Assembly (NCBI GenBank): GCA_947561715.1
Contig: OX387199.1
Span: forward strand, 13,459,001-13,523,000
Direction: 5' to 3'
From: Ascidia mentula
Lineage: Eukaryota; Chordata; Ascidiacea; Phlebobranchia; Ascidiidae
DNA length: 64,000 nucleotides
Below the pieces are notes generated by a model. The model saw nothing but the letters and a program-made list of their open reading frames with translations. It was not told where the DNA came from and made no database searches. A program made the position numbers and the translations under genes. This document shows, piece after piece, positions 18,085 through 40,690 of this stretch. Position 1 is the stretch's first letter; each line of letters opens with the position of its first letter.

Positions 18085-20545
18085 CCTGTAAGCATGTCCG
18101 TAAACTTTGTTACAGCTATGTACCTGTGATTGGCTTTGAAATGGCGGATTTTTTGTCTGCAAACACAGTTGTTCAAACCATTTTTTTTGTTCTGGCTTAT
18201 CAGACAAGGCAAAAGGCATGGAACTCCATGCAACACTTTGTAAAATCCTTACAAATCAAATTGAAGGATTCAAAAGTCAAAGTTTTTGGTTTGTGGCAAT
18301 ATTAATTATTCATTTTAGTAGGACCTCTTAGAATGTAATGGTGGCCAGAATAGCACATGATAAAAATGATAATTTTACAAATATAATGTTTTTGTTGCTG
18401 CCAGGCATATTGTAACTTAATAATCAACTTTATTCCGACGTTTCGCCTGTTATACAACAAGGATAACAGGCGAAATATGCCGGGCCTTGTTGTATAACAG
18501 GCGAAACGTCGGAATAAAGTTACGTTTTTATATATGCCAGAAGAACATAAATGGCATGTACATTGGAATGAGACTACAGGCATTCCATATGTAGTTGTTC
18601 AGGAGGAGTGCTGGAAAACATCTTGGCATTTAGACAAAACTTCAGTTTGCCAACACATTCAATGCCAATATTTAGTGACAATTTCACATGTACCGCATTT
18701 ACAGGAAATATGGTATAAATTATATGCAATATTTGATAAACTTAATATCTACACATAAATTTCACTTGTCTGTTTATTTAACGATACTTACGGCAAGCAA
18801 AGAGATTAGAAATCGCCTTTCTTTCAAAGATGCAGATTTGTTGCAGGAAGGTTTTTGTACACAGCTTGTTAAAGTCAAATTTGAGAAAGAAAAAACAGCT
18901 AATGAAATGGTTTGCATAGTTGTCTTGCTACTTTCAAGTAGGCACCACTACAGATGTACATTGTGTTTTTAGATTACGAGTACAAATGAGTTGGACTGTT
19001 TAAACAGAGGCAAGCAAAAGGTATAGGTAGTTAGCATTTTTATTTGTGCTATAATTTTTAATACTGAAATCTCGCAGTGGGTTTCTTCAGTAAATGAAGC
19101 TTACAGACTTATAGAAAAGTTTGAGGTTTCAACAATAACCAAGTTTATTATAAAAAAAGGAAAGAATATAGTATGTTAATGGAAGTATCAAAAACCATCA
19201 TGTAATTAGTGATTGCAAGAAAGTGCTTTTTTCCAGATACGTTCAAAAGTCGAATATTTTGGGACAAATGTTCTCCAATTCCGTATATTATTTTAAGAAG
19301 TTTGACTTTAGAATGCCACCAGGGAAAAGATCATAACAAAGAGAAGAAAGGGAACTATTCAGCTGTTCCTAAACAAGTAAATTTTGATATGCTAACAGAT
19401 TATGTTTAGTTGCAAGATCACCCTAATCCTTTCAAAAAAGAGGTTTTGTGTGCAAGGAACGAAGAATAAGAATTGCTTGTTTGTTCAAGAAATTATTAAA
19501 TTTCCGCAGTTTCAGGTATGTTGTTTTGTAACAATGTTGCATTGTTAAACAAAACAACTTATATCCAATAATCCATATTCTTTCTTTATAGTCATCCATC
19601 AAAGATGAATTTATTAAGAGCAAGATAAGCATCATTATTAAAGATCTATTACTGATCAATGATGTACAGCTGGTGAAAGAATTCTCTTTCCAAGGGATGA
19701 CGATCATTCAGGCCATGTGATTGGGGAAGTGTGTACAAGTTTGGAATAATGAATAATATTGAGATAATTTTTTCAATCAATTTATTTTAAGGCTGCCGGA
19801 TTTTTACAACCTATTGATCAAAGGTTAGTTGCCAAAATTGATGAACTGGTCACCGAAGGGGTAAACAGTGTTGAGGAAATTTTGCGAGTATTAAAACACT
19901 ACGCAGCCCATGAACTCTTCAAAAGAGAAGATGGATCCGGCCTTTCAAATAGGAGATTTTATCCTACTAAAAAGGATGTGCGAAACCATTACTACCGAGC
20001 TTTTACAAAATACAGGTTGGCAAAGATTAATCAAACCAATGTCCAAAGTTTGGTTGATGAATGGAAAAGAGATGGTGATTTGGGTGACAAGATTTATTTT
20101 CGTCCACATGTTGCCGGCAAGGAACCCGATGAAAGTCTGACAATAATGTTGGCCAACATAAGGACAAAGTGCTTTCACTAATGAGAAATGTAGCAAGTGC
20201 TGAATGTAAAGAAAGCTACGAAAAAGCATTGTGGCTCTTGTAGTCAAGTACACATTGGAAAAATAATTTAAAACTGCAAAAGTACTTCACTAATATTTGG
20301 CTTAATGTAAAAAAGGTATATGGCAACAAGCAGAATAAATGTAAAATAAACCTAAAACTAATTTTAGCGATGGTTGTGGTTGCATCGAGCCGATCAGTTG
20401 AAGGTTCTCATTCGCACATACAATGGTGTGGAGAGACAAGATCGTGTTTTGAAAGAATGCATGTCAGATTTAGGACAGACAAGTCCCTGTCTGGCCTAAC
20501 AAGGAATTTTTGCCAAACGGTTGGAACAAATAAGTTATTGTGCAA
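18085..20545 (+). pseudogene. composite MULE transposon, copy 1 (internally deleted)
   Basis: The copy keeps the N-terminal CaRF-like exons: VHWNETTGIPYVVVQEECW (about 18556), SVNEAYRLIEKFEVSTITKF (about 19090), SRIFWDKCSPIPYIILRS (19240) and LQPIDQRLVAKIDELVTEGV to RRFYPTKKDVRNHYYRAFTK (about 19807-20015). At about 20137 the frame jumps directly to the region after the second catalytic aspartate (ESLTIMLANIRTK, then SLMRNVASAEC), so the catalytic aspartates are deleted, and the piece ends near 20545 at the third motif (NGVERQ). Stops and frameshifts abound. It is a non-autonomous relic of the element described at 25.7 kb. Confidence 0.75.
18395..18540. mobile_element. Penelope tail palindrome nested in MULE copy 1
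   Basis: Two inverted copies of AACTTTATTCCGACGTTTCG plus CCTGTTATACAACAAGG face each other with no element body between them. The outer flank begins GCTGCCAGGCATA, the same start as the Penelope insertions at 38385 and 51197. Each arm carries the GAAACGTC part of the hammerhead-like motif, but the CUGANGA box is missing. Confidence 0.6.
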
Positions 20546-20879: not shown

Positions 20880-21150
20880 CCAAACTTTCAGGTAGATGCT
20901 AAAGAACCGTCACCAGAATTAGTCGAGATATGCGAATTCCATAGAAATCAGCGCAAACGTTAATTGAACTGCTGTTTAAACACATGTAATATCAATGTAA
21001 AATAACATTATAATTTTATTCCGAATCGCATTAAAAGAGGCAACGTGCAAACTGCTTTTAAGTTGACATACCGCTATGCACTCGTTGCGTTGGAAGGTAA
21101 CTGGCGGGAAAACAATCACGTGAACAGGCGTCATTTGCGGCATGCGAATG
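20880..21150 (+). pseudogene. piggyBac transposase C-terminal fragment and 3' end
   Basis: The plus strand reads VDAKEPSPELVEICEFHR at about 20892-20945, the same as the C-terminus of the minus-strand piggyBac at 29.3 kb. The following noncoding sequence (GGCGGGAAAACAATCACGTG, then CATGCGAATGCGTTTG) also matches the flank at 29103-29176 inverted. It is therefore the 3' end of a second copy. Confidence 0.75.
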
Positions 21151-21523
21151 CGTTTGTCTGGGTTTTTATGAAGCAAAAGGTTTGTTGATAACTGCAATAG
21201 ACTAGTAGGCCTATACAATACTGTTTTTACGTTACAGCTTCTTTCACATTTCTGTTGAGATTATGTATTTTTTTAATGAGTTTGAATGTTTCGACTTTAA
21301 GGAAAGGCGCCATTTTCGAAACTGCATACGATGTGCACATTCTAAAGGGATGAATCAATCATGGTAATGTTTGCCCAAAAATGTATTTTACGTTTATTGT
21401 TGTGCCTAAATTGCTGCCAGACATATTGTGTTTTCATTATTCTGTTTTTCTGGCACCATGAAACAAATACTTTTATTTACAATCCCCCAAAAAAAGCGAG
21501 TTATAATATAATAGATTAATATT

Positions 21524-22106: not shown

Positions 22107-22690
22107 GGCACAAGGGGGTTATGGTTGATATTCTTCAAATTTGAGAAGCTTTCGAATATTAATGCAAATTTTTTTTTGATTTTTCTTTTGTTGGAAAGTT
22201 CAGCCTGTGATCTATCTTTGTGTGAAAAAAGTAAGTCGCTGGCTTATAAGATGGCAGAGTTACACGCGACCAAAGTTTTGTTAACTGGGAATTTTTTTGT
22301 TACCTTTCGCGGCGGGCGCAGAACGTGGAAAAGTATAGGGGGTTATGGTTAATATTCTTCAAATTTGAGAAGCTTTCCGTTTTTCCTCGCGAAAAAGTTT
22401 GATATTTTTAGATAGTATGGACGCCAAAGAATATCTACCCTCAAGGATGTCAACGGAAATCGATGTTTACTTATAGTTATGGCATAGCAAACATATCATA
22501 TTCATATTCGAATATTAATGCAAATTTTTTTTTGATTTTTCTTTTGTTGGGAAGTTCAGCCTGTGATCTATCTTTGTGTGAAAAAAGTAAGTCGCTACCT
22601 CGTAAGGCGGCCGAGTCACGTCCGTTTAAACTTTTGTTAACTGGCGATTTTTTTTTGTCAACTAACATCCCTCTGGTCAAAAAAGCCTAG
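22107..22690. repeat. locally duplicated AT-rich block
   Basis: TTCGAATATTAATGCAAATT plus about 110 bp recurs 355 bp downstream (22152 and 22507). GGGGGTTATGGTTGATATTC recurs about 225 bp downstream (22113 and 22339). The two offsets differ, so the block was duplicated more than once or rearranged. No gene. Confidence 0.75.
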
Positions 22691-23186
22691 CTTGATAGCA
22701 TGTGAAATGTTAGGAGATAAAAGTCTTGTTTCATTGTGCGAGAATAACATTTTTTTTTAATGTTGTAAACCTGTCTGTAAAGTGCAAACCTTGTTACAGC
22801 CCCATACCTGTAATGACCTTCAATGTGTCCTTGTTTAAATATGTCAATAAAACAAGCAAGCATTTACAAATATTTTAGGTATATTGTTATATGTTTGTCC
22901 TGTTGTCGTGGTTTCAGTTAAAAGAAGATGCAATGAATTCGGTGCAAAATCATTACAACTTAAATTGAAGGACTCGACAGTCAAACATTTTGGTAAGTGA
23001 TATTACCCAACATTTGTTGGACCGACTAGGCTGCTACATAAGTGAAGATTTTTTTTTACTAGATTACAAAGATGCACATAAATGCCCTGTTCATTGGAAT
23101 GAGGCTGCAAGCATTCCTTATGTGGTTGTGCAAGAGGAGTGCTGGAAAACGTCTTGGCATTTTGATAAAAGTTTGAAACACTATTA

Positions 23187-24568
23187 CTATGTTTCCATGT
23201 CGCGAGTTTTGCCCATGTATTTGGGCCATGTGACCAAATATGGAAGTGACGCAAATGACGCAGGCCGAGTACTTGGCCAAAACGGCTGAATTTTTGGGCC
23301 ATCAAAATAGGTGGTCCTTAACTGACTTTGGCCAAGTAATTTTTCGGCCATGTAATGACTGCTGCAGGGTTTAGTAGCTTTTTGCGCAGTAAACAGCAGC
23401 TTTTTCGATTAATTTAACGCGCGTTTTGCACGGTGTTTAAATGAATGTCCTCAGTTACTTACAGCCTCCGTTAATCGCTTTTATTGTAAATATATTTCTT
23501 TTTTGATGGGTAGCAAGGGGCGTTTTATTACTTTGCAAGTGGATTATATGCCTTTCTCATCCTTTTATGCATGGATGTTATGTTGAACTGCAGTTTTAAA
23601 TGTTAAATTTAACTTAGAAAGTGGACAAGAGTGCTGTGGATGCATTGATAACCATATGAAAGTTTTTGCATGTTCATGCATTATATGCTAGTACAAATTG
23701 GTGAACACAATAGCTTTTCCACATTCTAGATAACTGCATCAGATTAGGTACTTAATAGCTTTGGAGATAAAACACATAGAATGATTTTTTTGTGTCATTT
23801 TCCCAGATTCACAGCTAGCACAATGACCAACTGTTGTTGAAATACATTTATTAATTAGTTATGCAAGAAAATGAACTAGAAAATAGTTCTGGAAGTCAAA
23901 GTTCATTTAAATTGTTGAACATGCTACATTTCCATTACCCTTGTGAAGATGCACAAACACTCTTAAAAAAGCACCAGGATTAGAAGTTGTGGCCTGACAA
24001 GCAAGGACTGCGACAACATGTTCTGACCATTTTGTTTATTTTTTTGCAATAAAGCTTTGCTCATTCAACAAATCACAAGTAAAGGACAATGTAAAACATT
24101 CATAATTTTGTCCAGTTTTGCACTTGTATGGCAGTAATCATCTCTCTCCAGTGATTCTCAAATATCTGTAAGATTGACAGTGGTTTTTTTTTTTATTATT
24201 AGTAATAAAAGTCAAGTTAAACATACCTCTTGTGTTGTTTGGAAGAACTTTGCCAATCTGTTTTCAAGGTTGAACCATGGTTATTGTACTATGCGCACAA
24301 TTGGAAAAAAACTAATTGAAAGTGCGGAAAGACACTAAAACAACTGCCACACAGTTCGAATCCAACTTTTTTGAGACACAAGCGTCCGATAGAGACGATT
24401 TGTCAGGTTTTCGCACTTTCAAAAACCCCGCGACACGATCAGTGAAGGGCGAAAAACTGTTACGCTTGAATGCGTATGCGACATGGAAACACGACCCGTT
24501 TTAGGACCAAAACGTAAAACATGGACCAAACATTTTGGGCTAAGCCAAATCGCGACATGGAAACATAG
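23187..24568. mobile_element. 1.38-kb TIR element (MITE-like) inserted in MULE copy 2
   Basis: Both ends carry a perfect 19-bp TIR, CTATGTTTCCATGTCGCGA (23187-23205, and inverted at 24550-24568). Each end abuts TA, as in Tc1/mariner-type insertions. The subterminal regions repeat GGGCCAT and GGCCAA motifs. No transposase is recognisable inside; an open frame at 24316-24504 runs into the right TIR and is likely chance. The insertion interrupts the MULE gene and postdates it. Confidence 0.8.
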
Positions 24569-25697
24569 TATATGTAGCCCATGAACTCTTTAATAATGAA
24601 GATGGACCAACCCTTTCAAATAGGAGATTTTATTCTACTAAAAAGGATGTGCGAAACCACTACCATCGAGCTTTTTCAAAATACAGGTTGGCAAAGATTG
24701 ATCAAACCAATGTCCAAAACTTAGTTGATGAATGGAAAAAAAGTGGTGAGATGTTGTTGATCATGGGGAATCAGCAACAGTAATTAAATATGAACAAACT
24801 ATGTTGTTTGTACACCAGTTTGCCTGGCAACTCAATTTATTGATTCGTTATGGGCAAGATATTTGTTTACTTGATGCTACCTACAAAACATCCAAGTATG
24901 CCCTTTCATTTATTTTTTCTTTGTGTGAAAACAAATGTTGGTTACCGAGTTGTGGCCAGCTTTATTACACAAAATGAGCGACAATTGGACATTGAGGAGG
25001 CATTGTCCATTTTAAAAACTTGGGCACCTTCTTGGAAACCAAACTATTTTATGGTTGATAAATGTGATGCTGAAATACATGCTATTGAGAGTGTTTTTGC
25101 AGGTAGGCATTGTAAAATTTGCAGGTGCTAACAAACATTCAACAAACAAAATATGCTTCCAGATACACATGTCCTTTTTTGTGATTTCCATCGAGAACAG
25201 GCATGGGAAAGATGGGTCAGAAAGTCTGACAACAATGTGGGTGAACACAAGGACGAAGTGCTTGCGCTAATGAGAAATGTTGCAAGTGCAGAATGTGTAG
25301 AAAGCTATGAAAAAGCATTGCAGTTTTTACAGTCCAGCTCACACTGGAAAAATAATGTAAAACTGCAGAAGTACTTCAGTAATATTTGGCTCAAAGAAAA
25401 AAAGGTATGTATAGGCAGAGATATAAAATATAAGGTAAACCATAAATGTATTTCAGAGATGGTTGTGGTTGCATCGAGCCGATCAGTTAAAGGTTCTCAT
25501 TCGCACAAACAATGGTGTGGAGAGACAAAATCGTGTTTTGAAAGAATGTCATGTCAGATTTAGGACTGACAAGTCCCTGTCTGGCCTAATTACTATTTTA
25601 CTTAAGGAATTTTTGCCAAACGGTTGGAACAAGTAAGTTATTGTGTTTTATCACTAGTGCTTTACCAGAGCTCAATGACAAGACACATTTTGAATAG

Positions 25698-27492
25698 ATA
25701 CAAACAAGAAAACTTGCGGTCATCAAGCAATTACAGAAGTAACAATGAAAACATTCCCACCTATCTACAAAATCGACCAAAAAAGGTGGTGCAACATTGT
25801 ATTAAACGAATAGGAGAGTCTGTGAATGTTGAGGAAGGTAGAATTTGTGGAATAGGAGACAATGTGTTTACTGTAGTGAGCAGTTCCACATGTGAAGTGT
25901 ACAATGTAAAACTTGGTAGTGGTAGTGAATTTCCAAAATGCACATGCATTGATTTTACACTACATTTTTTACCATGCAAGCACATGTTTGCAGTTTTTAA
26001 CAAGTTTTCAGATGTTGGTTGGTATAGCTTACCAGAGTGGTACCACAGCTCAGTGTACATGGTATTGGATCCTGCTGTTGTGGATCAAATCTCTCCAGGA
26101 AACGTTTATCATGATACACAAGTTGAAGAAATTGTTGACTCACCAACAACATTAAAAATAACACCTGTCAACAGTACTTCACAAGTTAATTCAGAAAAAG
26201 ACACTAAAAGTTGCAAAGAAACACATCGGAAATTTGTTGACCTGATTAAATTTTTGTCAGATCTTTCATATGATGTGACTACAGAGCAAGTATTAGAAAA
26301 AGGGTGTTCAGATGTTCAAGCAATTATTTCTGAATTTTCCAAGGCATGTTCCATTGATGCCGGATTGAGAATAACACAATCACCAAAATTGACATCCTTA
26401 AAAAGAAAAGTACCTACACCTTTACATGGTTCTCATGATGAACTGCCGCGTAAGCGCCCCAAACCAAATCCTTTTGCCTTTCGTGTTGGAAAGTATGCAA
26501 ATATGATGCAACCTTTGCACCAAGTTACCACACTCTTTCCAATGCGTAAACAGGATAAAATGCAAAAACAAACAACTAAAAGTTTTAAAAGTAAGTCCTC
26601 TTTTTGCAATGCACGTATCATGAAGGAGCCTCAGTGTCCTGAAACCAGCAGAAACCCGGGCATAACTGGCTTCATTAAAATTTATAATCCCATAAAAAAA
26701 GCTTTGCAAAATGGACCTCATTCAAGCTCCTTTTTGGAATTGAAATCACTGGATGACGAATTGCCTGCAGGCGAAGTTTGTGTTTTGCAAAAGCATGAAA
26801 GCCGATTTCATATTGGTTGGCTTTATGATGAAATCATTAACAGCTACCTATGGCAATTAACTTCCATGTTTGAACACACCATATATGCATATTCAACTGT
26901 AGCTCAAGCATTACAAAGAAGAGTGTCAATTACAAACATTTGGAAGGGTGTTAATGTACAGCAAAAACGGCTGATTTTTATACCCTGGAACCCTTCTGGT
27001 TGTCATTGGGTACTTATAGTTGTTCATATTGAAAGAAAAACACTGCTCTACATTGATCCAATGTCAATGCCCTGCAAGGAAACAGACGATTATGTTTACA
27101 CTGCACGAAAGATGGTTAATTATCTATTAGCTGTCAAGTTTGGTTGGAAAATTGCTTCCGTAGTGACTCCAGAAAGAGAACAGCAGCCAGATGGATCTAG
27201 TTGTGGAGTTATGATTTGCATGTATGCAAAATGGCTAGCATCAGGACAATGCTTACAACAATTTGGTTCTGTTAAAGGGTACCGAATGCAAATCTTAAAC
27301 TTGATTGCCGGCAAATGCCTTACTAATACAACAAACAAGGATGTGTGCAAATCATGCAAAGATAAAGGTGACGACTCTTCGGAACTTGTCTGGATTGAAT
27401 GCACTCGATGCAAACAATGGTTTCATTTAAAGTGTGTTAACTATTCACTAGAATATGCCAAGAAAGATAAATTCTTTGTTTGTCCAATGTAA
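25698..27492 (+). CDS. terminal exon of the MULE gene: SWIM, Ulp1/C48 protease, PHD-like finger
   Basis: This exon (acceptor TTTTGAATAG) stays open for almost 600 residues. SWIM zinc finger at about 25936-25990: CTC, then CKH, the C-x-C...C-x-H pattern used in MULE transposases for DNA or protein binding. A basic linker (RKRPKPNPFAFRVGK) follows. A Ulp1-like C48 cysteine peptidase lies at about 26780-27300: His in GCHWVL (27004-27006), Asp in YIDPM (27055-27057), Cys in DGSSCGVMI (27202-27204), the catalytic triad that cleaves SUMO conjugates. A PHD-like zinc finger (CKSC ... ECTRC ... HLKC ... FVCPM, 27355-27489) ends the protein, lacking the last expected cysteine. No lesion is visible in this exon. 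Confidence 0.85.
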
Positions 27493-28305
27493 ATACGCAT
27501 ATTTTTTAAATGCATAAATCATTCTGTAAGGGCAAAGGCATAGTTGAACGCAAGTGTGATCAACCAACGAAGACAGTCGGAACGTTCTGCACAAGGATGA
27601 GGTTTATGACAAAATGAAACTTCCCTTGTGTATGAATGTGGTTGACCGTTAAGCCATTACATTGTGATGTGCCTGAACGCTTAGTGTGGTTACCGACTAG
27701 CTAGCATAGGTTTACCTGATGCTAGCTGAACGCTTGTAAAAGTGTGGTTAACCTTAACTTGCTGAGCCCGAACCTTGTAACAAATAGTTTATGAAAGACC
27801 CAGTTTGATATGGCTATTGGCGAGGCTTCTGGGTTATCAAAAATGACCAACGACCACATGCAGGATGGCTCCCTCAGCCGTGGTTGGAAATCCTGTGCAA
27901 ACATAGACTGAATAACACTAACACCTTGTTTATGACTTGCAAATCACAACTTAAGTGCATTAATTTTTTTTATTTCTTTTCTCCATTTTTCTGTGAAACA
28001 ATAAAAAACTTTAGCAACAGTGTGTGTGCATCTAGTCGCAAGATATTTGTTTACAACGGTCTGATCATCCTCCTACAAAATACAGAAAACATTAGTCTGC
28101 AGAATTATTTGCTAAATAAATTTGACATACTTCTGCATATTTTGCAAAAATCCTTGGCAAATTTTCTACAATATTACCACATTTTAGTATATTTAAAGAG
28201 TATTGCTATTGGATGCAAAGTTTAGTTACAGTGTATATGTACTGAGATTGGCTCATTTTATACTTACAACATGTCTTTTAACTTCTTTCTACAAACAAAA
28301 AGAAA
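27493..28305. other. MULE copy 2 downstream region, no gene recognised
   Basis: This lies between the MULE stop codon and the tandem array. Open frames (for example 27722-27904 minus, 27884-28225 plus) show no motif. By analogy with copy 3 it should belong to the 3' part of the transposon. Confidence 0.35.
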
Positions 28306-28768
28306 CGGATTAATATGTCACATTGTCCTCCTTCTGTACTTGCCTCTGAAACAGGAACAAAACATATTAAATTAAAACTGATACACAACGTTAGATTAGT
28401 ATAAGACAATATATACTCACATTGTCCTCCTTCTGTACTTGCCTCTGAAACAGGAACAAAACATATTGATTACTATATTATATTAGTATTAGACAATATA
28501 TAATCACATTGTCCTCCTTCTGTACTTGCCTCTGAAACAGGAACAAAACATATTAAATTAAAACTCTTACGCGCAATGTTAGATTAGTATGAAACAATAT
28601 ATACTCACATTGTCCTCCTTCTGTACTTGCCTCTGAAACAGGAACAAAACATATCAAATTAAAACTGATACACAACGTTAGATTAGTATAAGACAATATA
28701 TACTCACATTGTCCTCCTTCTGTACTTGCCTCTGAAACAGGAACAAAACATATTAAATTAAAACTGAT
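28306..28768 (-). repeat. tandem array A of about 99-bp units with mini-exon-like cassettes
   Basis: Five units start at 28322, 28421, 28508, 28609 and 28708. On the minus strand each unit reads TTTTGTTCCTGTTTCAG (branch/pyrimidine tract and AG acceptor), then the invariant 24-mer starting AGGCAAGTACAGAAGG, then a GTGAGTATA-type donor (GTGACAT and GTGATTATA in two units). In frame the 24-mer encodes RQVQKEDN. An adjoining minus-strand exon-like piece lies at about 28910-28943, again with acceptor (TTTACAG) and donor (GTAAGAT). It lies downstream of MULE copy 2, as array B does downstream of copy 3. Confidence 0.8.
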
Positions 28769-29227
28769 CGGTATTTAATAGGCAAATCCTTCACAATAAG
28801 ATTGAATACTTTGCCCTTTATAACAGCGTGTAAAGTCTACTTATCAATCAAAAATATTACAGACTAGCAAAAAAATGATGTTTGCAGTACAAAGATTATT
28901 ATCTTACAATTCCTCCCAAAAAAATGTCTTCTGGGGCCCATCTGTAAAGGAAAAAAACTGGTTCACCACCACCGAATTAATGGTGTGACAATTTATTTTC
29001 GTCTCCATCTTCTTAAATTAATAAAAAAAATGATAAATAAAAGCATACTATTACAAACAATTAGTTAGATAGATTAAATTTTTGTTATTATGCCTGGGTG
29101 CAAACCGTTAACGTAAAATCACCCAAACGCATTCGCACGCTGCATAAAAGACTCACGTGATTGCTTTCCCGCCATTCATTGTGTGATGCGGCAACATCCA
29201 TGACATTAGGTATAGAAGACATTAGCA

Positions 29228-30550
29228 TTAAGTTATGCAGTATGTGATTTTTGCATTGATAATACATGTGTTTAAACAGCAGGTGATTCTATGGAATTCG
29301 CATATCTCGACTAATTCTGGTGACGGTTCTTTAGCATCTACCAAACTTTCATGATATAATTTAAAACAATCAATGCATAAATGCTTTTGGCATCCAGAGC
29401 ATTTGTACATGGTCGACTTGCGTTGAACAATTCTCCAATCCGAACAGTGATAGCAATCTCGTCTGCATGACTTTTGTGGATAGTGACCACGAGAAACAGA
29501 AGAATGCACTATTTCTTTATACCCCAGGAGGGAAACAACTATATTTTGTATAAAAGCCTGCCATGGACAACAACATGTCAAAAATTCTGCGATACCACTT
29601 CCTTGCTCGATGAGGAAACAAATAAACTTTTGATTTTTGGTCCAACAGGTCCACTCCACCCATAAACATGTTGTATTGGTCCACAGCAAATGGCTTCTTG
29701 ATTTGGCAAAAACCTGTTGGCGATTTTGTGTCTCTAATTTCTTTTGTTACACGCTTGACATCTTGCCAAACACAAGTCAAAAGTTTGCCACACTTGGCAA
29801 AAACTGGATCATCACCTTTTCTTAGGGGTAATTGGGATGGCTTCAAACTTGATGGCATTCCTTTCCTATTATAACTGACAGTGCCACACACACCTATTCC
29901 ACATTTACTCAGTTCTTTGGCAAGAAGTGGAGAGGAGTAATAGCTGCCAAATAAACAACACGACCTTTATTCTGAAATCCATGCAAATGATTTAAAACAA
30001 CCTGCTGAGTTTTCGAAATTTTACCACTGGCTTCATCATGTACTTCTTTGCCACAATACATTTTCCAATGTAGGCAATATCCAGAGGATGCTTCGGCAAC
30101 AGCAAATGCTTTGTAACCCCATTTACTATTTTTTTTGGATTATATTGCTTTAAAAAACTTCTTCCTTAGAGAAAGTTCCTTCTGGGGATAATATAGCGCT
30201 GCAAACTTTGGAATAAATATGAAAATAATTGGCCGAATTTTAAAAAGTCTGTCATAGCCTGGTTCGTCACGCTTCTTTATATGTTTGTTGTCAACAAAGT
30301 ACAGAAATGAACTGATTTTTTGAAATCGATGTCTTTTCATGTAATTTGTAAACTGTGGAGTTTTTGTTGGGCCTGTAGTGCACCAGTAATCTGAAATTTT
30401 TGGCTTAGTTACCAAACCCATCAAAAGCCTCATTCCAATAAATATTTTCATTTCCACAGGTTTCCATTGTACAGACTGAGTGTTGATTTCCAAGCAATTT
30501 TCAGCATATAGATTGGTTTGGTTTACAAGAAACAGACTAAAAAAATCCAT
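29228..30550 (-). pseudogene. piggyBac transposase with C-terminal cysteine-rich domain
   Basis: Minus-strand blocks in order: SDYWCTTGPTKTPQFTNYM, GYDRLFKIRPI, ELSL (where the first catalytic aspartate should follow), KWGYKAFAVAEASSGYCL, CGTVSYNRKGMP, then AVDQYNMFMGGVDLLDQ and a C-terminal cysteine-rich zinc-ribbon/RING-like tail (CRRDCYHCSDW, CSGCQKHLCIDC). The segment after ELSL is deleted and followed by a stop, and the second-aspartate block reads FGSYYSSP, so both catalytic aspartates appear lost. There are further stops near 29890. PiggyBac enzymes excise precisely at TTAA; I could not fix the TIRs. A 3' relic of the same family lies at 20.9 kb. Confidence 0.8.
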
Positions 30551-30687
30551 TGGTGTGAGACTTAGGTATTACTGTGGTATTACAAGAGGTAAAGTAGGGT
30601 TTTCTGTTGCTGATTCGGGCAGCAATTTTCGAGTTCACGGTATAGCGTTCTTAAGTCAGACTCACAGGTAAAAGTTCAATTGATAAG

Positions 30688-31830
30688 ATGGAGGCAATAG
30701 CAATTCTGCAGGTGATTCAAAGAAAAAAGGCACCAAAAATCCGAAAATATTTAACTGATGGACAGAATCCTGTGGACAGTCTAACAAACAATCAGTTTTT
30801 TATGCGGTATAGGCTTACAAAAGAAGGAGTGTACCAATTTATGCCACTGTTGGTAAATGATCTGCAAAGAGATTCAAACAGAGGTTAGCCTTTGCCCCCA
30901 ATTTTACAGTTCACTGTAGTTTTGAGATTTTATGCTACCGGCTGTTATCAAATAGTTGCAGGAGATTTGGAAGGCGTTTCACAGCCTACTGGTGAAAAAA
31001 ACCAGCAAACTTATTGCAAGAAAAAGAAGTCAATTCATTTGCTTTCCAAGTAGTCCAGAAAATGTACTTGGGCAATCAAGAAAGTTTTATGAGAAAGCTG
31101 TGAGTTTCCTGGTGTAATAGGAGCTATTGATTGCACCCATATAAAAATACAGTCTCCTATAGGTCCAGATGCTGAACTATTCAGAAAGGGATATTTTTCG
31201 ATTAATGTGCAGGCTGTTTGTGATGCAGACATGTCTATTACAAATATTTTTGCCAGATGGAGAGGGTCTGTACATGACTCCAGAATATTTGAAAACTCTA
31301 GATTGTATGAAAAATTTGAAAGTGGACAATACAAAAATATTCTTCTGGGTGATGGTGGTTACCCATGCAAGCCTTACCTTATGACACCATTTTCAACTCC
31401 CCAAACCTCTGCCCAAATTAAATACAACAAGTCCCATGTGAAAACACGAAACACCATTGAAAGAATGTTTGGAGTGTGGAAAAGGATATTTCCCTGTCGT
31501 TCACAAGAGTCCATGTTCAAACAGCTTTGTCTGTTATTGTTGCAACTGCAGTGCTCTACAACTTTGCAATGAAATATAGGTATGTTGCATTTCATCTCAT
31601 ATGGTCATTTGTGAACCTTTCAATATTGTCAAGGTTTTTGTAAGAAATATTTGTGTTACAACTTGAGTTACATTCATTCTTGTCATTCTTTGACCAGGTA
31701 CATTGAAGAAGAAGTACTTGAGGTCCAACACAATAGTACAGACAGCACACAACAGTCTAGCCCAGCTAGGAATAGTGTGTCAGGACTGACCAGAAGAAAT
31801 ATACTAGTGCAAAGCCACTTTTCAGCTTAG
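30688..31830 (+). pseudogene. Harbinger transposase, third copy, nearly complete
   Basis: The start MEAIAILQVIQ is followed by TVVLRFYATGCYQIVAGD (about 30910-30965), then GVIGAIDCTHIKI with the first aspartate (about 31112-31150), VHDSRIF with the second (about 31270), ILLGDGGYP with the third (about 31345) and RNTIERMFG with the conserved glutamate. A short intron (about 31580-31697) precedes the final exon YIEEEVLEVQ ... NILVQSHFSA and a TAG. Lesions: TAG at 30886-30888, a frameshift after GVSQPT, another just before CEFPGV, and one near 31490 (the tail VIVATAVLYNFA is in another frame). The partner gene converges from 32.8 kb. Confidence 0.85.
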
Positions 31831-32019
31831 TCTGATGTAGTTTTGTGTTTGAAAGTCATGTGTATGTGCTTCATGTACTTGTGTAACTGCTATTTTCTTG
31901 TTACCAAGACAACATTTTTTTGTGTTAATACAAAACGAGTATATTTTATTTCAAAAGTTGTGGAGTCAAGAAAGTGTGAAAACAGAACTACAGAAAATTT
32001 TTTTAACGAGTTACAAAAC

Positions 32020-32819
32020 CTAACTGATTAAAATATTTTCCTCTTGCAGTTGTTTCGACATAAGTTTCATTTTTAATTCATGCTCTTTAACTCCAATAAA
32101 AAGTTTTCTAAATCATTTTGGGGACGTTTTTGATTTTTTGGGGGTTTATGAAAACTGATGTTAGCGGATGAAGTTGAGTTGGACAGGTAGGTTGAAGTTG
32201 GTGTGACAGGTACAGAATCGATGGGTTCAAATAAGACAGCATCATTAGCTGCCTCATTTATCATCTGCACATCTTCAAATAGTAAAAAAAAATTAGATTT
32301 ATTCAAATATCTTATGTTTTCAGCTCAACTAACCAGAGTTGCAACTATCTGCAGGTACTTCAACTGCAAAAAAGCTGTCTGCGTCATCGTCAAAATTATT
32401 TTGAAGTGGGTCAAATTGTAAAGGAATCAATTGATAAATTTTTTGGGAAATTTCCGGAGTATCAGCTGGGGGTGGACCTCCCCCTGTTTTCCTGCGCTCT
32501 CTTTTTTCATGTGCAATGTCTTTTTTGGATCTAAAAGTGAAAGATATGAAAACTTCAAGATATTTCCTTGCATCAAGGGAGTAGCCTACATACCTGGCTT
32601 TTAAGTTGGCCCAACATTTTTAAGTTGATTCCAACCAAACTTTTGGACATTTGGGTTACTATTAAACTCTGTGGCCAAATTTTCCCAAGCCTTCCTTTTT
32701 TTGTTTAAAGATGTGCAGTCGTTGTGTTTATTTTCAAGTATGTGTATGTTACATTTGACAAGTTCGATCAACAACGTTTTTTCGGTTTCAGTGAAAACAC
32801 ACCTTTTTTTGCTATCCAT
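32020..32819 (-). pseudogene. Myb/SANT-like DNA-binding partner of the Harbinger transposase
   Basis: Exon 1 (32819 to about 32597) encodes FTETEKTLLIELVKCNIHIL ... KKRKAWENLATEFNSNP, a trihelix/Myb-like domain of the NAIF1 type; the usual LKxxWxNLK helix follows in a shifted frame, consistent with a one-base loss in an A-run near 32615. Exon 2 (about 32530-32332) carries GGGPPPADTPE and an acidic stretch. Exon 3 (about 32275-32020) starts after TTTGAAG with DVQMINEAANDA and ends in a helical tail, shifted once near 32090. In Harbinger elements this protein binds the ends and escorts the transposase to the nucleus. Confidence 0.75.
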
Positions 32820-33362
32820 GTTTGTACTGTGGCAAAATACGAGAAGTTATTTACTTATGCGTGTACATTTACATTAATTTAGCAAAATAAAACAGTAAAC
32901 AAAACCTTTGACCTTGTTGCGCAGACAACTGCCGACGCCAACGCTATGTGGCGCATTTAAGTTATCGATGACGTAATAACTCGACGATACGAAAAAATAT
33001 TCGAAACCGTCACGCAAGTCTGACTTGAAAGTGCAAACTTCAGCGAGACTTAAGAAACCTTTTATAATGCCGTGTGCCTGTTGATAAGGTTTAGCACACT
33101 TACGTAGACAAGTCGGATCACGAGAGGATTGATGTTTTGAAACGAAAAAAGGCAAATCTTTTTTTTCTTCTCTCTCTTTCGCTCTGTCTTTCTGGGCGGG
33201 AACTCAACGCAACGTGGCGTCTGGTCCGGTATCGTGACGACGTGACCGTTGTACTTATTTACAGTTTTGTAAGAATATAGGTGTGTAGATAATTAATTTA
33301 GGTTATTATATTAGTTTTAATAATTTTTAGTTAATTTTTATTAAAAAACGTTAAAGAGATGA

Positions 33363-36300
33363 GTGAGATGGATTTACGGTTAGTGTGCATACGCTGCACG
33401 AATTTATTGCGTTAAATGGGCATTTTGGATACATTGCAGGTTTGAAGAGTCCATAAAGTGGTTTGGAAGTGCAAATTGTAAAAAGTAAAAATGATTGCTA
33501 TATTTTCTAGTGTAATATTTCCAAATTTCAGCACTTTCCGACAATAGATAAAGCCTCCGAGTTCATTCACCAGTTTGAGACCACACTTGAACTAAAAAAT
33601 GAAGGTTACTCTTCAATAGAAACCGGTATGACATTTTATCTATCGTGGTTTATGTATCTGTTACAAAAACTTGGAATCAAGTTAAATTTTTTTTTTGCAG
33701 ATTACAATCAAATAGTTGTCCACTGGGATGCTGATAATGGTGTTCCTTACACCACAATTAAAAAAACAAACTGGGAGTACTTCAATGCTAAAAATGAGAG
33801 TGGAAAACCCAGTAGCAAATTAGATTGCTTGAGCAATGGAACTTTCCATGTTTAAAGGCATCGGCTGATTAAAATATTAAAAAATTTTATGCCCCCAAAA
33901 TGAAATCTTTTGCTCTGTACAGAGTCAACAGGAGCATGCACGAAGAAATGCTAGGCAAGTTATTCAAAATGTTCATTCCGGAAAAAAACACAGCAGTGGA
34001 TTGCAATACAACTTTTACCGCAGTGTTTTGTAAAAGTGGAAACAACTCATCAGATGTAGGTTTTAGTTTTCCAAAGTTTTTAGGTATGTGCTTTTGTACA
34101 AATCCTGTTCATAACCATTAGAAGCCCGAATTGCACAAAACAGTATGAAAATAAAGAATGCAATATACAGGTAAGTTCTTATTAACTGTTTTCAGTTAAT
34201 AAGATATCTTTTTAGTGGGTTGTCACACTGGAACATTGCCAGAACGCAATTAAGGAATTTGAAATTTCCACAATGACCAAGTTCATTCAACAAAGGAAAA
34301 TTTCATATGGTAAATCTGAGTTATTGCAGTAGTCTGTTGTAAAAAATTGTGATTTTGTGCAGACATTTCCAAAAGTTTAATACGCTGGGATGAATCCTTT
34401 GTTCCATATGTAATACTAAAATCTACATGGTTGGAATGTCAGCATGGAATTGACCGAAACAAAAAATACAATGAAAAGCGGAAAATATAAACTCCAAAAC
34501 AGGTAAAGAGAAAAAGGTTTTGTCATCAGTTAAGTAATAGGTTTTTATTGCAGTTGCACCTAATCCGTTCAAGAAAAACTTGTGTGTTCAAAGCACCAAG
34601 AAAAAGAACTGCCAAACAAAATTATGCATTCAAGAAGTTTGCAAGTTTCCACAATTTCAGGTGAGGAGCATTCTTACGACTTAAAGAAAAACACATTGAT
34701 ATTCATACAATTTAGATGTCCAAACACAACAGACGAAATAAAGCAAATTCAAGTGCAGCCATTAGAAGTCTGTTGGCTGGAAATGATAAAAACATTATTA
34801 AAAAGTTGGAATACAGAGTTTCCTTTCCTAGTGAAAGTGGGCATTCTGGCCATGTTTTGGGTCAAGTATGTAATTTCTAACACCCTTAAAAAGAAACTTG
34901 TATTGCATGAATGTTGATACTCATTTCAGGGTGTTGGTTTCTTACAGCCAGTTGATAAACGGTTAATTGAGAAAATTGATGAATTGGTATCTGAAGGTGT
35001 CCATTCTGTAGATGAAATTATGCGACATCTCAAATATTGTGTGCTTCATGAACTCTTTAAAAACGGCGATAGACCAGCACCAACAAACAGACGATTTTTT
35101 CCAACCAAAAAGGACATTCAGTCGCATTATTATAAAGCCTTCACCAGACAAAGACTCTCCAAAATTGATCAAACAAATGTCCAGTGCTTAGTTGATGAAT
35201 GGACAAAAAATGCTGAGGTAGGTGACAATATTTTGTTTCGACCATACAAAGCTGGTGATAGCTGGAATGAAAATTCCAAATCCGTTGATGGTCAACAATG
35301 GCAAGACAAACCACTTAACCAAACGATGCTGCTTGTTCATCAATTTGCTTGGCAGCGCAGACTCCTACTGCGTTATGGTCAAGACATTTGATGACAAGCC
35401 ACTTATAAGACATCTAAATATGCATTGCCTTTGTTTTTTGTTTGTGTAAAGACAAATGTTGGCTCAAGTCGTTGCAACTTTCATCACTCAAAATAAACGG
35501 CAATCCGACATAGAAGAAGCACTCTCAGTTCTCCAAAAATGGAAACCAAATTGGAAACCAGCATTTTTTATGACAGACAAATGTGATTCAGAAATTAATG
35601 CGATTGAAAATGTTTTCAAAGGTGAAACATTCTGTATATGTATTTGAGTGTTAAAATGTGTAGCTTACAATTTAAGGCCAAAATAATTTTATTGCAAGTT
35701 CACTAAAATAATATTTAATCACTGCAGATTGTCAAGTTTTAATATGTGACTTTCACCGAGAACAGGCATGGGAGCGCTGGGTGAAAAAATCTGAAAATAA
35801 TATTGGGGATGATAGAGAAAGTGTGTTAGCCCTAATGAGAGCTGTTGCCAATGCTGAGAGCAAAGAAAGTTTTCAAAAAGCTTTGAGCAAGTTCCAGTCA
35901 AGTTCGTACTGGAGCGACAACAAAAGGCTACAAAAATATTTCACTAATGTTTGGTTGACAGAAAAAGAAGTAAGAAATCAGGTTTAACACAGTATTTATG
36001 CAGCATATGTCTACTACTGTTTGCTGTATTTTAGAGATGGTTGTGGGTTTACCGGGCAGATCGCCTGAAAGTTCTAATACGAACCAATAACGGCGTTGAA
36101 AGACAAAATAGAGTTTTAAAGGAATGCCACATCCGTTTTAGAACAGACAAATTTCTTTCTGGGCTTATTACGATTTTACACAAAGAGTTTCTGCCCGAGG
36201 GATTGGTTAAGTAAGTTTGTTATACAGAAACTTGTGTATTTGTAGTAAGTCTTGAACTGTTACTATTATGACAAATATATTAAAGCAGTGCATTTTAGGT

Positions 36301-38049
36301 ATCAACAAGAAAATATGAGATCTTCAAGTGACTGCCGAAGTTGCAGTGACTTCGTTCCCCCCTTCCTTCAAAATCGACCTAGAAAAATAGTGAAACATTG
36401 CATTCAACGAATTGGGGAATCATCAAATGTCACAGCAAGAACAATTGAAAGGAATGGAAATATTTTTTATGTGAAAAGTTGTTCATCCGATGAGATTTAT
36501 TCCATAAAATTTGGAGGAACAAATGTTTTTCCAAAAGGCACATGTGCAGACTTTACTAGGTACTTTTTGCCTTACAAGCACATGTTCGCTGTTTTTCACA
36601 AGTATGATGATGTTGACTGGTACAGTCTACCTGCATGGTACCACAGTTCAGTGCACATGGTACTTGATCCAGAAATTGTTGGTCAACTATCCGTTCAACA
36701 AGCCTCAAAGAAAATGGATGAACCTGCAACCAAGTCATTAGACGAACCAACACATTCACATGATTATGAAAAAAAACAACGTGCCTTCGGATAAAAGTTC
36801 AAATTTACAGAAAAGCCATCATAAGTTTGTTGAAGTAACAAAGGCATTGCTAGACATGTCCTATGATGTAACTTCACCAGTCGTTTTAGATGAAGCAACT
36901 GCAAATGTTGAAACAATGTTATCCACATTTTCAAATGCATGTTCTTTTGACAGCGGTTTCAGAATAATTCAAACACCAAAACTGAAGTCGCTAAAAAGAA
37001 AAAGACCAGCATATTCACAATCCAAAAACGATGAGCTGCCTAGAAAACAGCCAAAGCCAAATCCATATGCTTCAAGGGTTGGTGCCCGGGCAAACCTCCT
37101 GCGACCTTTGCACCAAGTGAAAACATTGTTTCCTATAACAGAAAAAAAAAACAAGACAATTATTGCAGAACCCATGAATGACGACTTTGTTGAACCACCT
37201 TCATTCAAAGGGGAATTGCATAAAACAATGATAACACCACAGATTGCAAGCAAACCGAGCAAGGTTGATCAGCAATTGTTAAAAAATGGTCCCCATTCGC
37301 TCTGTATGCTAGACCTAAAAACAGTCGAACCTTTATTGCCAGACTGTGAGGTCATCCTTAAATCCAAAGACCAAGATTTCACCTCTGGCTGGTTAACTGA
37401 TGAAGTCATCAACAGTTACTTGTAGAGATTAACCACTGCAAACAGCCATACACTGTATGTATGTTCCATGGTTGTCCGAACATTAATGCAAAAAGGTTCT
37501 ATTAAAAGATTGTGGAGTGGTGTCTCCCTTCACAAAAAACAAATGATTTTTTTGCCCTGGATCACTAAAAGACATTGGATTCTTCTTGCAGTCAACATTA
37601 AAAAAAGACAATTGTTATATATTGATCCGTTGAAAAATTCCTGTATTGACCATTTACAGGGTGTTGCTAAGGCAAAATCAATGGTTGACCATTTGTTGTC
37701 GCAAAAATTCCATTTTAAAATTGAATCAGTGGAATCCCCAAAACGGGTTTATCAACCGGATTCTGACAGCTGTGGAGTATTCATTTGCATGTATGCCAAA
37801 TGGCTTGCTATGGGTATAAGCCTTGAGCAAAGGTGTTCTGTATACCTGTACAGAAAAGAAATATTCGACAGTATTTCTGGAAACTGCCTAACTGGCAAAC
37901 TTAGAAGACAGAAATGCAAGTTTTGCAATGACAATACTAAGACTCTTTGGGTTGAATGTACTAGATGCAAACAATGGTTTCATGTAGAGTGTGTAGGCAA
38001 AACCGTTGGCAATGCATCAGATGATATGTATTTTGTTTGCCCAAGTTAA
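33363..38049 (+). pseudogene. composite MULE transposon gene, copy 3 (most complete exon set)
   Basis: Likely exons: a start at 33360 (MSEMDLR); HFPTIDKASEFIHQFETTLE (33531-33625); VVHWDADNGVPYTTIKKTNW (33700-33855); WVVTLEHCQNAIKEFEISTM (34219-34312); LIRWDESFVPYVILKSTWLE (34364-34500); NPFKKNLCVQSTKKKNC (34555-34660); MSKHNRRNKANSS (34716-34866); LQPVDKRLIEKIDELVSEGV to RRFFPTKKDIQSHYYKAF (34930-35390); FMTDKCDSEINAI (about 35567); CDFHREQAWERWVKK; NNGVERQNRVLKE (about 36093); SWIM, Ulp1 and PHD-like domains to 38049. Breaks: stop after NGTFHV, stop and indel at the first catalytic motif (35388), frameshift near 36780, TAG at 37423-37425. SWIM has lost two cysteines (GTC, YKH). The protease triad residues remain. 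Confidence 0.85.
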
Positions 38050-38070
38050 ACATGCAAATGTGCAATTTTA

Positions 38071-38341
38071 GCAATCGCTTGGTCATCGAGTAAGGTGTAT
38101 ATGCCACTATGCTGTGCGACGGTTGCAAACCCTAGCCAGTGCAATCGCTTGGTCATAAAGTGAGGTGTACATGCCACTATGCTGTGCGACGGTTGCAAAC
38201 CCTAGCCAGTGCAATCGCTTGGTCATAAAGTGAGGTGTATATGCCACTATGCTGTGCGAAGGTTGCAAAACCCTAGCCAGTGCAATCGCTTGGTCATCGA
38301 ATGAGGTGTATATGCCACTATGCTGTGCGAAGGTTGCAACC
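38071..38341. repeat. 70-bp tandem repeat, about 3.9 copies
   Basis: Units starting GCAATCGCTTGGTCAT occur at 38071, 38141, 38211 and 38282, each containing ATGCCACTATGCTGTGCG. Identity is high with a few substitutions and one inserted A. It lies directly after the MULE copy 3 stop codon. Confidence 0.9.
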
Positions 38342-38515: not shown

Positions 38516-38599
38516 TGGTGATGCTGAATAAAAAAAAAACAATATTGTAAATAATGACATGCATCCATGTGGTGAAACAAAATTAGCATTGCAGTGTTG

Positions 38600-39085: not shown

Positions 39086-39469
39086 AAAGGATTTGCCTTC
39101 TTTCTTTTCAAAACATCAATCCTCTCGTGATCCGACTTGTCTACGTAAGTGTCCTAAACGTTGATAAGCGAGCGCACTTGAGTCTTGTAAGTCAAGGAAC
39201 TTTTCTTTCTTTTCTGCTTTCTTCCCACCACCGACTTACACGGGGCTTGGAGTTTTGCACGTGCTTCTATAATAAGGGGTATGTAACTTGCTGGGAGCTT
39301 GCATATAGGTTTTGCTGAGTTATAGCAGGAGGAGGAGGATTCTTCGTCGGAGGAAAATGTGCCTCCATTATCATCGGTGGGGTTGGGACTCTTGTTCGGT
39401 GGTCTGATCCTTGTTTTGATCCTCTGTGATCTTCTTATTAGTTTCTTTTCAGCGACTTCAGTTTTGGTG

Positions 39470-40690
39470 TTTGAATCATTCTGAAACCGCTGTCAAAAGA
39501 ACATGCATTTCAAAATGGGGATAACATTGTTTCAACATTTACAGTTGCTTCATCTAAAGCGACTGGTGAAGTTACATTATAGGACATATGCCTTTGTTAC
39601 TTCAATAAACTTATGATGGCTTTTCTGCAAATTTGAACTTTTATCCGAAGGCACGTTTTTTTTTTTTCATAATCATGTGAATGTGTTGGTTCGTCTAATG
39701 GCTTGGTTGCAGGTTCATCCATTTTCTTTCAGGCTTGTAGAACAGATAGTTGACCAACAATTTCTGGATCAAGTACCAGTCCACATCATCATACTTGTCA
39801 AAAACAGCGAACATGTGCTTGCAAGGCACCTAGTAAAATCTGCACATGTGCATTTTGGAAAAACATTTGTTCCTCTGAATTTTGTGGAATAAATCTCATC
39901 GGATGAATAATTTCACAAAAAAAAAACAACATTTCCATTCCTTTCAATTGTTCTTCGGTAGTCACTTGAAGATCTCATATTTTCTTGTTGATACCTAAAA
40001 TGCTTTAATATATTTTTCATATAGTAACAATTGAAGACTTATTACTTAACCAATCCCACAGAAAGAGGTTTGTCTGTTCTAAAACGGATGTGGCATTCCT
40101 TCAAAAACTATATATTGTATTTTCACGCCATTGTTGGTTCGTATTAGAACCTCCAGGCGATCTGTCCGGTAAACCCACAACCATCTCTAAAATACAGCAA
40201 ACAATTGTTGACATATGCTGCATAAATACTGAGTTCTTATTCTGTCAACCAAACATTAGTGATGTATTTTTTGAAGCCTTTTGTTGTCTTAAGAACTTGT
40301 CTGGAACTCTTGCTCTCAGCATTGGCTATAGCTCTCATCCGGGCTAACATCCCCAATATTATTTTCAGATTTTCCTATCCAGCGCTCCTGTTCTCGGTGA
40401 AAGTCGCATATTAAAACTTGACAGTCTGCAGTGATTAAATATTATTTCAGTGAACTAGCAATAAAATTACAAATTGTAAGCTACACATTTAACACTCAAA
40501 TACATATACAGAATATATGGAACGAAGGATTCATCCCAGCGTATTGAACTTTTGGAAGCTTGTACAACAGACTACTACAATAACTCAGATTTACCATATG
40601 AAATTTTCCTTTGTTGAATGAACTTTTTATACTGTTTTGTGCAATCCACAGTTTCATCAGATTTTGTACAAAAGCACATACCTAAAAACA
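39470..40690 (-). pseudogene. inverted, deleted MULE copy 4
   Basis: Read on the minus strand this segment matches copy 3 (36985 back to about 34080) with gaps: the C-terminal linker, the SWIM region (39780-39870), the exon ending in the third catalytic motif (about 40070-40200), the CDFHREQ exon (about 40370-40430) and the IRWDESF exon (about 40510-40560). Intron edges are preserved. The SWIM CxC/CKH cysteines look less damaged than in copy 3 (ACKHM-like reading). With copy 3 it forms a large imperfect palindrome. Confidence 0.75.

Follow-up and report, generated by a model that had tools for sequence, protein, structure and literature searches.

Does one transposon gene in an ascidian combine a Mutator-type transposase with the DNA-binding domain of an animal transcription factor, a PHD finger and a protease of SUMO type? 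The question is raised by a window of 64,000 nucleotides from the genome of Ascidia mentula (positions 13459001-13523000 of contig OX387199.1, here C52; genome assembly of 195.8 Mb in 79 contigs). For this stretch a first-pass annotation had proposed a Mutator-like element (MULE) whose gene resembles at its N-terminus the calcium-responsive transcription factor CaRF (Pfam family ALS2CR8). Judged from its sequence, the element is a real, animal-wide, multidomain MULE with a predicted CaRF-type DNA-binding domain. The reading that we prefer, at a probability of about 0.78, is that an autonomous clade of animal MULEs encodes one multidomain transposase, and that CaRF and other proteins with only the ALS2CR8 domain most probably go back to transposases of this kind, which lost their catalytic core and became host genes. 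We favour a transposase ancestry of CaRF as the best explanation, with moderate confidence and without regarding it as proven.

The protein is represented by copy L019, in which 11 exons with GT-AG borders form a spliced frame of 1,257 amino acids with zero internal stops; its start and some of the N-terminal junctions are the analyst's choice, and the end of the first exon (E1) was placed to keep the frame. The resemblance to CaRF noted in the annotation is borne out by a strong match to the ALS2CR8 profile (PF15299) at residues 159-359 (4.6e-36, 125.3 bits against a cut-off of 28.9). Of the 235 positions of the model, this match spans 6-228 and so takes in the helices past the finger. Also over their cut-offs are MULE (PF10551, residues 442-530, 8e-12), the RNase H-like domain of ZSWIM1-3 (1.5e-12), SWIM (residues 735-762, 2.4e-4), Ulp1/C48 (residues 1074-1185, 7.1e-12) and PHD (PF00628, residues 1210-1256, 3.6e-6). 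The D, D, C2H and E motifs of a MULE-type DDE core are present, and the best fold match of this core is ISCth4, a member of the IS256 family. In the predicted protease, the His-Asp-Cys triad of Ulp1/C48 enzymes is in place.

Twenty copies, numbered with the prefix L, were retrieved from the genome. Exons E3-E10 were all matched, in order, in 18 of them, as the common exon order described in the annotation had suggested; the exceptions are L024, without E3-E5, and L015, without E8. Stops fall within exon matches in four copies (L014, L015, L022, L028). A chance neighbourhood of separate genes is rejected on the kept order and the single open spliced frame. The motifs LxDATYKT and DKC were found in all 20 copies, CDFHREQ in 19, and NNGVERQN and the SWIM pattern in 16 each; the C48 His motif is present in 18 and the Cys motif in 16, while the triad Asp was seen in five of six representatives. 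Values of dN/dS (ratio of nonsynonymous to synonymous change) were calculated between families for seven pairs by the Nei-Gojobori method, the pair L019-L021 being saturated in every part except C48. They range from 0.12-0.20 for ALS2CR8, 0.04-0.11 for the DDE core and 0.15-0.32 for C48, so that the major parts are constrained.

The motif VHW-D, which had been listed among the CaRF segments, lies outside the CaRF domain proper, in the extra N-terminal unit E1. E1 arose by duplication of E4, an exon of the CaRF domain, and has since diverged: hhalign aligned 26 columns of the two with a probability of 93% (E 3e-7, score 34.3), compared to a best score of 14.0 in 60 column shuffles. From this comparison, the ascidian transposases seem to carry two tandem CaRF-like units, of which the first (E1) has diverged and is without the ligand pattern.

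The copies fall into families, with identities (longest blastn match per pair) of 93-100% within families (28 pairs) and 64-85% between them (154 pairs). Outer ends were defined for family D, which consists of two complete and near-identical copies of 7.2 kb on different contigs, L019 and L020 (identity of 99.7% along 5.6 kb and of 99.0% along 1.6 kb). Both have terminal inverted repeats (TIRs) of 287 bp starting with GGTTACC; aligning one end of L019 with the opposite end of L020 gives an identity of 99.3-99.7%. Each is flanked by its own 9-bp target duplication, ATATTTTTT in one case and GATAATAAC in the other. Family D thus shows the combination expected of a MULE, namely TIRs together with a target duplication of 8-11 bp. 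An assembly artefact was likewise rejected, as the two copies sit on different contigs, each with its own duplication. Near-identical copies of this kind suggest recent movement. In family A, L012 and L013, which lie some 0.77 Mb from each other on contig C70, do not differ at all along 9.8 kb (100% identity), their minisatellite arrays included; either one of them was inserted very recently or the segment was duplicated.

Minisatellites accompany several of the families in the 12 of 20 loci covered by the repeat scan. In family A, a 57-bp unit forms arrays on either flank, inverted relative to each other, and arrays with units of 71-105 bp lie on the 3' side in families F (99 bp), C (105 bp), G (97 bp) and E (101 and 71 bp) and in L028 (71 bp). 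The scan found no minisatellite inside the family D elements: none in L019, and in L020 a single array outside the element.

Whether the parts travel together was assessed with profile searches of the whole genome, which gave at least 98 ALS2CR8, at least 49 MULE and at least 87 C48 matches. Linkage windows were set at 2.5 kb or less upstream of MULE on the same strand for ALS2CR8, and at 5 kb or less downstream for C48. ALS2CR8 lies upstream of 31 of the 49 MULE matches, and 26 of those 31 also have C48 downstream; two of the 49 have C48 only and 16 have neither. Seen from the other end, 26 of 70 ALS2CR8 loci have both partners, five MULE only, six C48 only and 33 neither. The ALS2CR8 profile hit and the co-occurrence of the N- and C-terminal parts are thus the opposite of the two outcomes named beforehand as speaking against the proposed gene, i.e. 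N-terminal exons with no ALS2CR8 match, or terminal parts that occur separately and never together. Solo ALS2CR8 loci also exist and are informative.

The combination is not restricted to this ascidian. A protein search with residues 126-900 returned 12 proteins, from Ciona intestinalis, Oculina, Mizuhopecten, Crassostrea, Actinostola, Hydra, Patiria, Planococcus, Watersipora and three sources without a species name; where names are given, they read 'uncharacterized', 'hypothetical' or 'SWIM-type domain-containing'. All but P0005 and P0007 entered the domain rescan. The protein of Ciona intestinalis is 49% identical over 89% of the query and has all five domains over cut-off, and ALS2CR8 and MULE occur together in coral, mollusc, echinoderm, mealybug and bryozoan proteins. 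The Crassostrea protein has ALS2CR8, MULE and C48, with PHD under cut-off; the Hydra protein P0008 has MULE, SWIM, C48 and PHD, and of ALS2CR8 only a tail, under cut-off. When the N-terminus of the coral protein was used as a query limited to that region, the search recovered the coral protein itself and nothing else. In the bryozoan protein P0012, an N-terminus that by eye looks like a reverse transcriptase is joined to ALS2CR8 and MULE, perhaps by fusion of gene models.

That the protease and the PHD finger are mere passengers with no role in transposition we regard as decidedly unlikely. Such a view could draw on ALS2CR8-MULE proteins that have no C48 or PHD match (P0002, P0009, P0010; some are perhaps incomplete gene models) and on the PHD finger being the part under least constraint. 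It is opposed by the constraint on C48 between subfamilies, by the recurrence of the C48-PHD pair in Hydra, Ciona and, at sub-cut-off level for PHD, Crassostrea, and by the presence of Ulp1 and PHD in other transposons according to PMC2836005.

The host side is represented by the CaRF gene L029, which encodes 429 amino acids in three exons, matches ALS2CR8 at 7.2e-28 (98.5 bits) and gave no DDE, SWIM, protease or PHD match in Pfam. Its product is 81% identical to a protein of Phallusia mammillata and 65% identical to a Clavelina protein named calcium-responsive transcription factor-like by NCBI. Three tandem ALS2CR8 loci lie about 8.5-9 kb apart on the minus strand (G000:C2:1090678-1108664); one of them, L031, is by eye closely similar to L029, so CaRF seems to be duplicated in this ascidian. 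In PMC2877716, CaRF is described as an orphan factor, with an activation domain in mammals and an orthologue in Nematostella.

The ALS2CR8 tree has 36 rows, several of them (L034 included) on long branches, and is unrooted, without an outgroup. The tunicate CaRF-like proteins, together with L029, L030, L001 and P0016, form one clade of 12 (support 100/99). All 20 transposase rows are placed on the opposite side of the CaRF branch, together with the ALS2CR8-only loci L032, L033, L034 and L002. L032, L033 and L002 are found within an unresolved group with tunicate transposases (96/94), and L034 inside a 99/96 group. A constraint uniting all 15 ALS2CR8-only rows was rejected (AU p 0.0075), and again with L002 added (p 0.0009).

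These results bear on reverse capture, in which a host CaRF gene came first and a MULE took up its DNA-binding exons and then spread through animals. The single, well-supported clade of tunicate CaRF-like proteins, the unrooted tree and the age of CaRF implied by the Nematostella orthologue would all fit such a history, and MULEs are described in PMC6446971 as prone to acquiring host gene fragments. We nevertheless consider it unlikely. ALS2CR8 accompanies MULE in proteins from cnidarians, molluscs, echinoderms, insects, bryozoans and tunicates, and several ALS2CR8-only loci sit among the transposases and share with them two introns that are absent from the CaRF clade. A capture would also have had to bring along a hairpin hundreds of residues away, beyond the DDE core and SWIM, although the hairpin match is itself weak.

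Intron positions connect both sides, although not all junctions were readable in each locus. Two introns, each read at donor and acceptor, are common to L019 and L029, one of phase 1 just before the domain and one of phase 0 after the first Cys; the acceptor of the former also fits L028, L030, L031 and L033, and the donor of the latter fits L030, L031 and L032. Two further phase-0 donors are co-located in L019, L028, L032, L033, L034 and L002; at these two sites L029 has no intron and L030 is open across. It is highly improbable that the likeness of CaRF and the transposase N-terminus is no more than a resemblance between two independent descendants of an older zinc finger of WRKY-GCM1 type, since a match over nearly the whole ALS2CR8 model, including the helical part, and two agreeing introns go beyond a shared fold.

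The hairpin mentioned above follows SWIM in the transposase and comprises two helices (699-714 and 720-740 in the model of P0002); the CaRF-like model has a hairpin at 341-350 and 354-373, predicted with middling confidence. Comparison of the hairpin profiles by hhalign gave a probability of 57% (E 1.1e-4, score 23.3), with 60 column shuffles scoring 14.1 or less. In hmmsearch with the transposase-hairpin profile, six real CaRF proteins, the best with 12.3 bits, scored above every one of 714 control sequences made by shuffling or reversal, of which the best reached 4.9 bits. A C-terminal hairpin common to CaRF and transposase is suggestive only.

The locus L002 together with L035 (G000:C71:7151414-7153562, plus strand) appears without the core: Pfam recognised ALS2CR8 (1.9e-36), PHD (1.3e-7) and what remains of C48 (1e-4) but gave no MULE or SWIM match, and the hairpin region is present. 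It is, as far as its sequence tells, a natural case of core loss from a transposase, and a candidate for an exapted regulator. Alternatively, L032, L033, L034 and L002/L035 could be decaying transposon remnants instead of exapted genes, a possibility to which we would give somewhat worse than even odds. It agrees with the position of L032, L033, L034 and L002 among the transposases in the tree and with the L002 protease, whose His and Asp are, by eye, replaced. Decay is harder to reconcile with the last frame of L002/L035, which is open over 590 amino acids and has kept ALS2CR8 and PHD, or with the setting of L034 in a run of five ALS2CR8 exon matches that forms at least two adjacent gene-like units.

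We find it slightly more probable than its negation that CaRF is a domesticated Mutator-type transposase which shed DDE and SWIM and kept its DNA-binding domain and C-terminal hairpin, that this domain is a WRKY-GCM1-type finger, and that the same route was taken again in ascidians by L032, L033, L034 and L002/L035; the elements from which these came would, to judge by their near-identical copies, have moved recently. The WRKY-GCM1 zinc finger is a beta-sheet finger with C, C, H and H as ligands, and such fingers are said to have been linked with transposons by Babu et al. in 2006. A WRKY match of the CaRF-like model came from the second-look aligner alone: Foldseek returned nothing at E 0.001 for this model, and neither the finger profile nor a single-sequence search recovered a WRKY or FAR1 chain among PDB sequences. 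The annotation's proposal that CaRF may derive from such a transposase is strengthened by the tree, the introns, the possible hairpin and the core-less relative, but its direction is not proven.

Several observations weigh against the preferred origin of CaRF from a multidomain transposase, or against parts of it. The tree, which has no outgroup, does not fix which way the descent ran, since its midpoint root falls between the CaRF clade and the transposases; L034 pairs weakly with a coral transposase (82/23), and the CaRF clade is without two of the four introns. In the hairpin search, the other 8 of 14 real targets, L029 among them, scored among or below the controls, so that this signal is weak. 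The link to human CaRF rests on the Pfam ALS2CR8 model and the NCBI name of the Clavelina protein; a profile search found tunicate CaRF proteins and zero vertebrate ones. The CaRF elements TTCGAGGC, AACGAGGC and RRARYGAGGC and the core YGAGGC do not occur in the TIRs of L019 and L020. Over the 20 copies, RRARYGAGGC was found once each in L022 and L023, TTCGAGGC once each in L025 and L026, and AACGAGGC not at all; base-shuffle means are 3.2 for RRARYGAGGC, 2.5 for TTCGAGGC and 2.7 for AACGAGGC, so the real motifs are not commoner than expected. There is thus no sign that the transposase domain keeps the specificity of CaRF. As to the C-terminal parts, the PHD pattern is present in just 14 of the 20 copies, PHD dN/dS ranges from 0.22-0.77 (0.56 and 0.77 in two pairs) and reaches 1.49 for L028, whose last exon has a stop, and the protease of L017 (family C), the sixth representative, has Asn in place of the triad Asp.

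If the preferred reading holds, the CaRF domain or its finger(s) would recognise the element ends, where minisatellite arrays might offer many sites, and the DDE core would cut and insert as in other MULEs. The PHD finger would read chromatin through histone tails. At the site that the element leaves or enters, the C48 protease could strip proteins of chromatin or repair of SUMO or a related modifier, which might keep these factors permissive or counter silencing. A host CaRF would arise when the catalytic core is lost and the DNA-binding domain kept. A CaRF domain on a widespread animal transposase would place CaRF in a family and suggest where it came from and how it may fold; it would also provide natural proteins for comparison, with testable DNA targets, namely transposon ends. 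In addition, one naturally intact protein would combine predicted activities that bind the ends, cut DNA, read chromatin and cleave SUMO-type modifiers, which makes the proposed role of Ulp1 in transposition testable.

In the window itself, copies were mapped by tblastn with the L019 exons and by blastn against the genomic copies, and domains were called by frame translation and Pfam profiles. All domains named in the annotation are present there. ALS2CR8 exceeds the cut-off at 19768-20178 (6e-12) and 34918-35388 (6.2e-12) and stays under it at 34353-34487 (N-terminal part, 4.5e-5) and 24544-24780 (2.1e-4). A single open frame at 25606-27492 (628 codons) matches C48 (1e-10), PHD (9e-7) and SWIM (4.8e-5), and the open reading frame (ORF) at 37426-38046 matches C48 (5.4e-12) and PHD (6.9e-7). 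MULE is slightly under its cut-off in two scanned pieces (1.5e-5 and 1.6e-5), both of them broken exons, compared to the much stronger match in intact L019. Altogether, the window holds three broken copies of different subfamilies, an inverted fragment and a two-exon scrap. The exon mapping resolves the range 22770..38049, annotated as one gene, into two separate degraded elements, a family F copy and a family E copy with pieces of other transposons between them.

The most upstream broken copy (18549..20542, plus strand) belongs to family C, is 91-92% like L016-L018 and contains E1, E3, E4, E5, E6, the first half of E7, E8 and E9; it was detected by tblastn and blastn, and the first of the above ALS2CR8 matches lies in it. 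A displaced 5' piece of the family F copy follows at 20895..21494 (plus; blastn, 90% like L023 1474-2127). The broken family F copy itself extends over 22678..28957 on the plus strand, in pieces 91-95% like L023. Its E1 lies at 23089-23211 (plus); tblastn found no match to exons E2-E6 of L019 within the copy, and a remnant of E7 at 24571-25101 (plus) has two stops inside the match. E8, with the C2H motif of MULEs, and E9, with NNGVERQN and the catalytic Glu, are stop-free at 25162..25633 (plus; tblastn 2.3e-36 and 5.4e-33). E10 comprises SWIM, the helical hairpin, Ulp1/C48 and the PHD finger in a single open frame (25699..27489, plus). Close to the 3' end is a 99-bp minisatellite of 4.7 copies that is common to L023 (28318..28768, plus).

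The broken family E copy (34146..38189, plus) is 80% like L021 and has E3-E10 present. All of its exons are on the plus strand. E4 (34362..34502) encodes the first strand of the CaRF domain including the first Cys (PYVILKSTWLECQHG), with ALS2CR8 at 4.5e-5 over profile positions 10-48, tblastn at 9.3e-13 and one stop at the end of the match. E5 and E6 (34559..34865; tblastn 6.7e-12 and 3.7e-9) cover the middle of the domain, and E7 (34930..35617) its end and the start of the DDE core (ALS2CR8 6.2e-12, MULE 1.5e-5), with two stops in the match. The DDE core continues in E8 and E9 (35727..36211), and E10 (36300..38040) holds the SWIM region, hairpin, C48 and PHD in two match pieces, the second with one stop. 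Directly 3' of the gene is a 70-bp minisatellite of 3.8 copies (38071..38339, plus), with a unit as in L021 and L028. The inverted fragment, with E8, E9 and the start of E10, lies on the minus strand at 39444..40426, where inverted repeats were also recorded; over 39442-39955 it is 75% like L022, a copy of family E. The isolated scrap, CaRF exons E4-E5, is at 43535..43748 (plus; tblastn 3.4e-6 and 9e-7).

Other elements were observed nearby. Between the second and third copies are piggyBac-type transposase pieces (29517-30565, minus; PF13843 1.4e-14 and 3e-24) and a Harbinger-type transposase piece (31093-31569, plus; PF13359 DDE_Tnp_4 2.9e-29). A 112-bp minisatellite of about 4-5 copies with identity up to 98% is located just beyond the third copy (38528-39193). 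ORFs at 45577-47288 (plus) include a P-loop-like GDAGAGKTT and by eye resemble a superfamily-3 helicase of a small DNA virus, with no match in Pfam; an ORF at 56933-57592 (plus) looks by eye like a fragment of a hAT-type transposase, with no Pfam match over cut-off.

Among known systems, the plant Kaonashi MULEs had been brought in for comparison because they too carry a ULP protease domain. They are described in PMC2528002 as non-TIR elements with the ULP domain in reverse orientation to mudrA, whereas here a single protein includes ULP as an in-frame fusion and TIRs are present in family D; membership in Kaonashi was rejected on these grounds. Animal MuDR elements with Ulp1, recorded from hydra and lancelet in PMC2836005 after Repbase reports, are closer in that a Mutator transposase is combined with an Ulp1 domain, but a CaRF domain is not mentioned in the accessible portion of that paper. 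The same portion places PHD beside Ulp1 in a Ginger1, aligns the Ulp1 and PHD domains of Ginger1 and Mutator transposases, and proposes that Ulp1 and OTU domains may have a part in transposition. Given the sub-cut-off ALS2CR8 tail of the Hydra protein P0008, the animal MuDR-Ulp1 elements may be the same clade minus its N-terminus.

CaRF itself has the same DNA-binding domain as the transposase and, in L029, introns at two of the same positions, possibly also the C-terminal hairpin, but differs in that L029 gave no match to the catalytic, SWIM, protease and PHD parts and in the activation domain of mammalian CaRF. The FAR1/FHY3 and MUG genes of plants have kept their transposase domains, which CaRF would have lost. 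Among the papers listed in searches of open-access literature, a scope outside which the Repbase reports fall, none was seen to connect CaRF or ALS2CR8 to a transposase, as judged in part by title or the opening of the abstract; in PMC5454887, the one listed paper on transposable elements that names ALS2CR8, the name occurs only in a table, in a row that deals with colorectal cancer and the silencing of LINE1.

Nearest in anatomy is Rehavkus, a MULE-related superfamily (PMC6446971, PMC10218199), compared here by its published description. In the available parts of these sources, the likeness extends to the PHD finger, the 9-bp target duplication and the TIR length (26-400 bp in Rehavkus; PMC6446971), and to a minisatellite near the 3' end, Rehavkus-1_TC having a 164-bp satellite in its inverted termini. 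This last trait is shared by families A, C, E, F and G and by L028, but not by family D. Rehavkus differs in that the same parts list arthropods and annelids as hosts and do not mention CaRF or Ulp1. Taken together, the C-terminal protease and PHD finger follow a known theme, and the link to CaRF is the apparently new and testable part.

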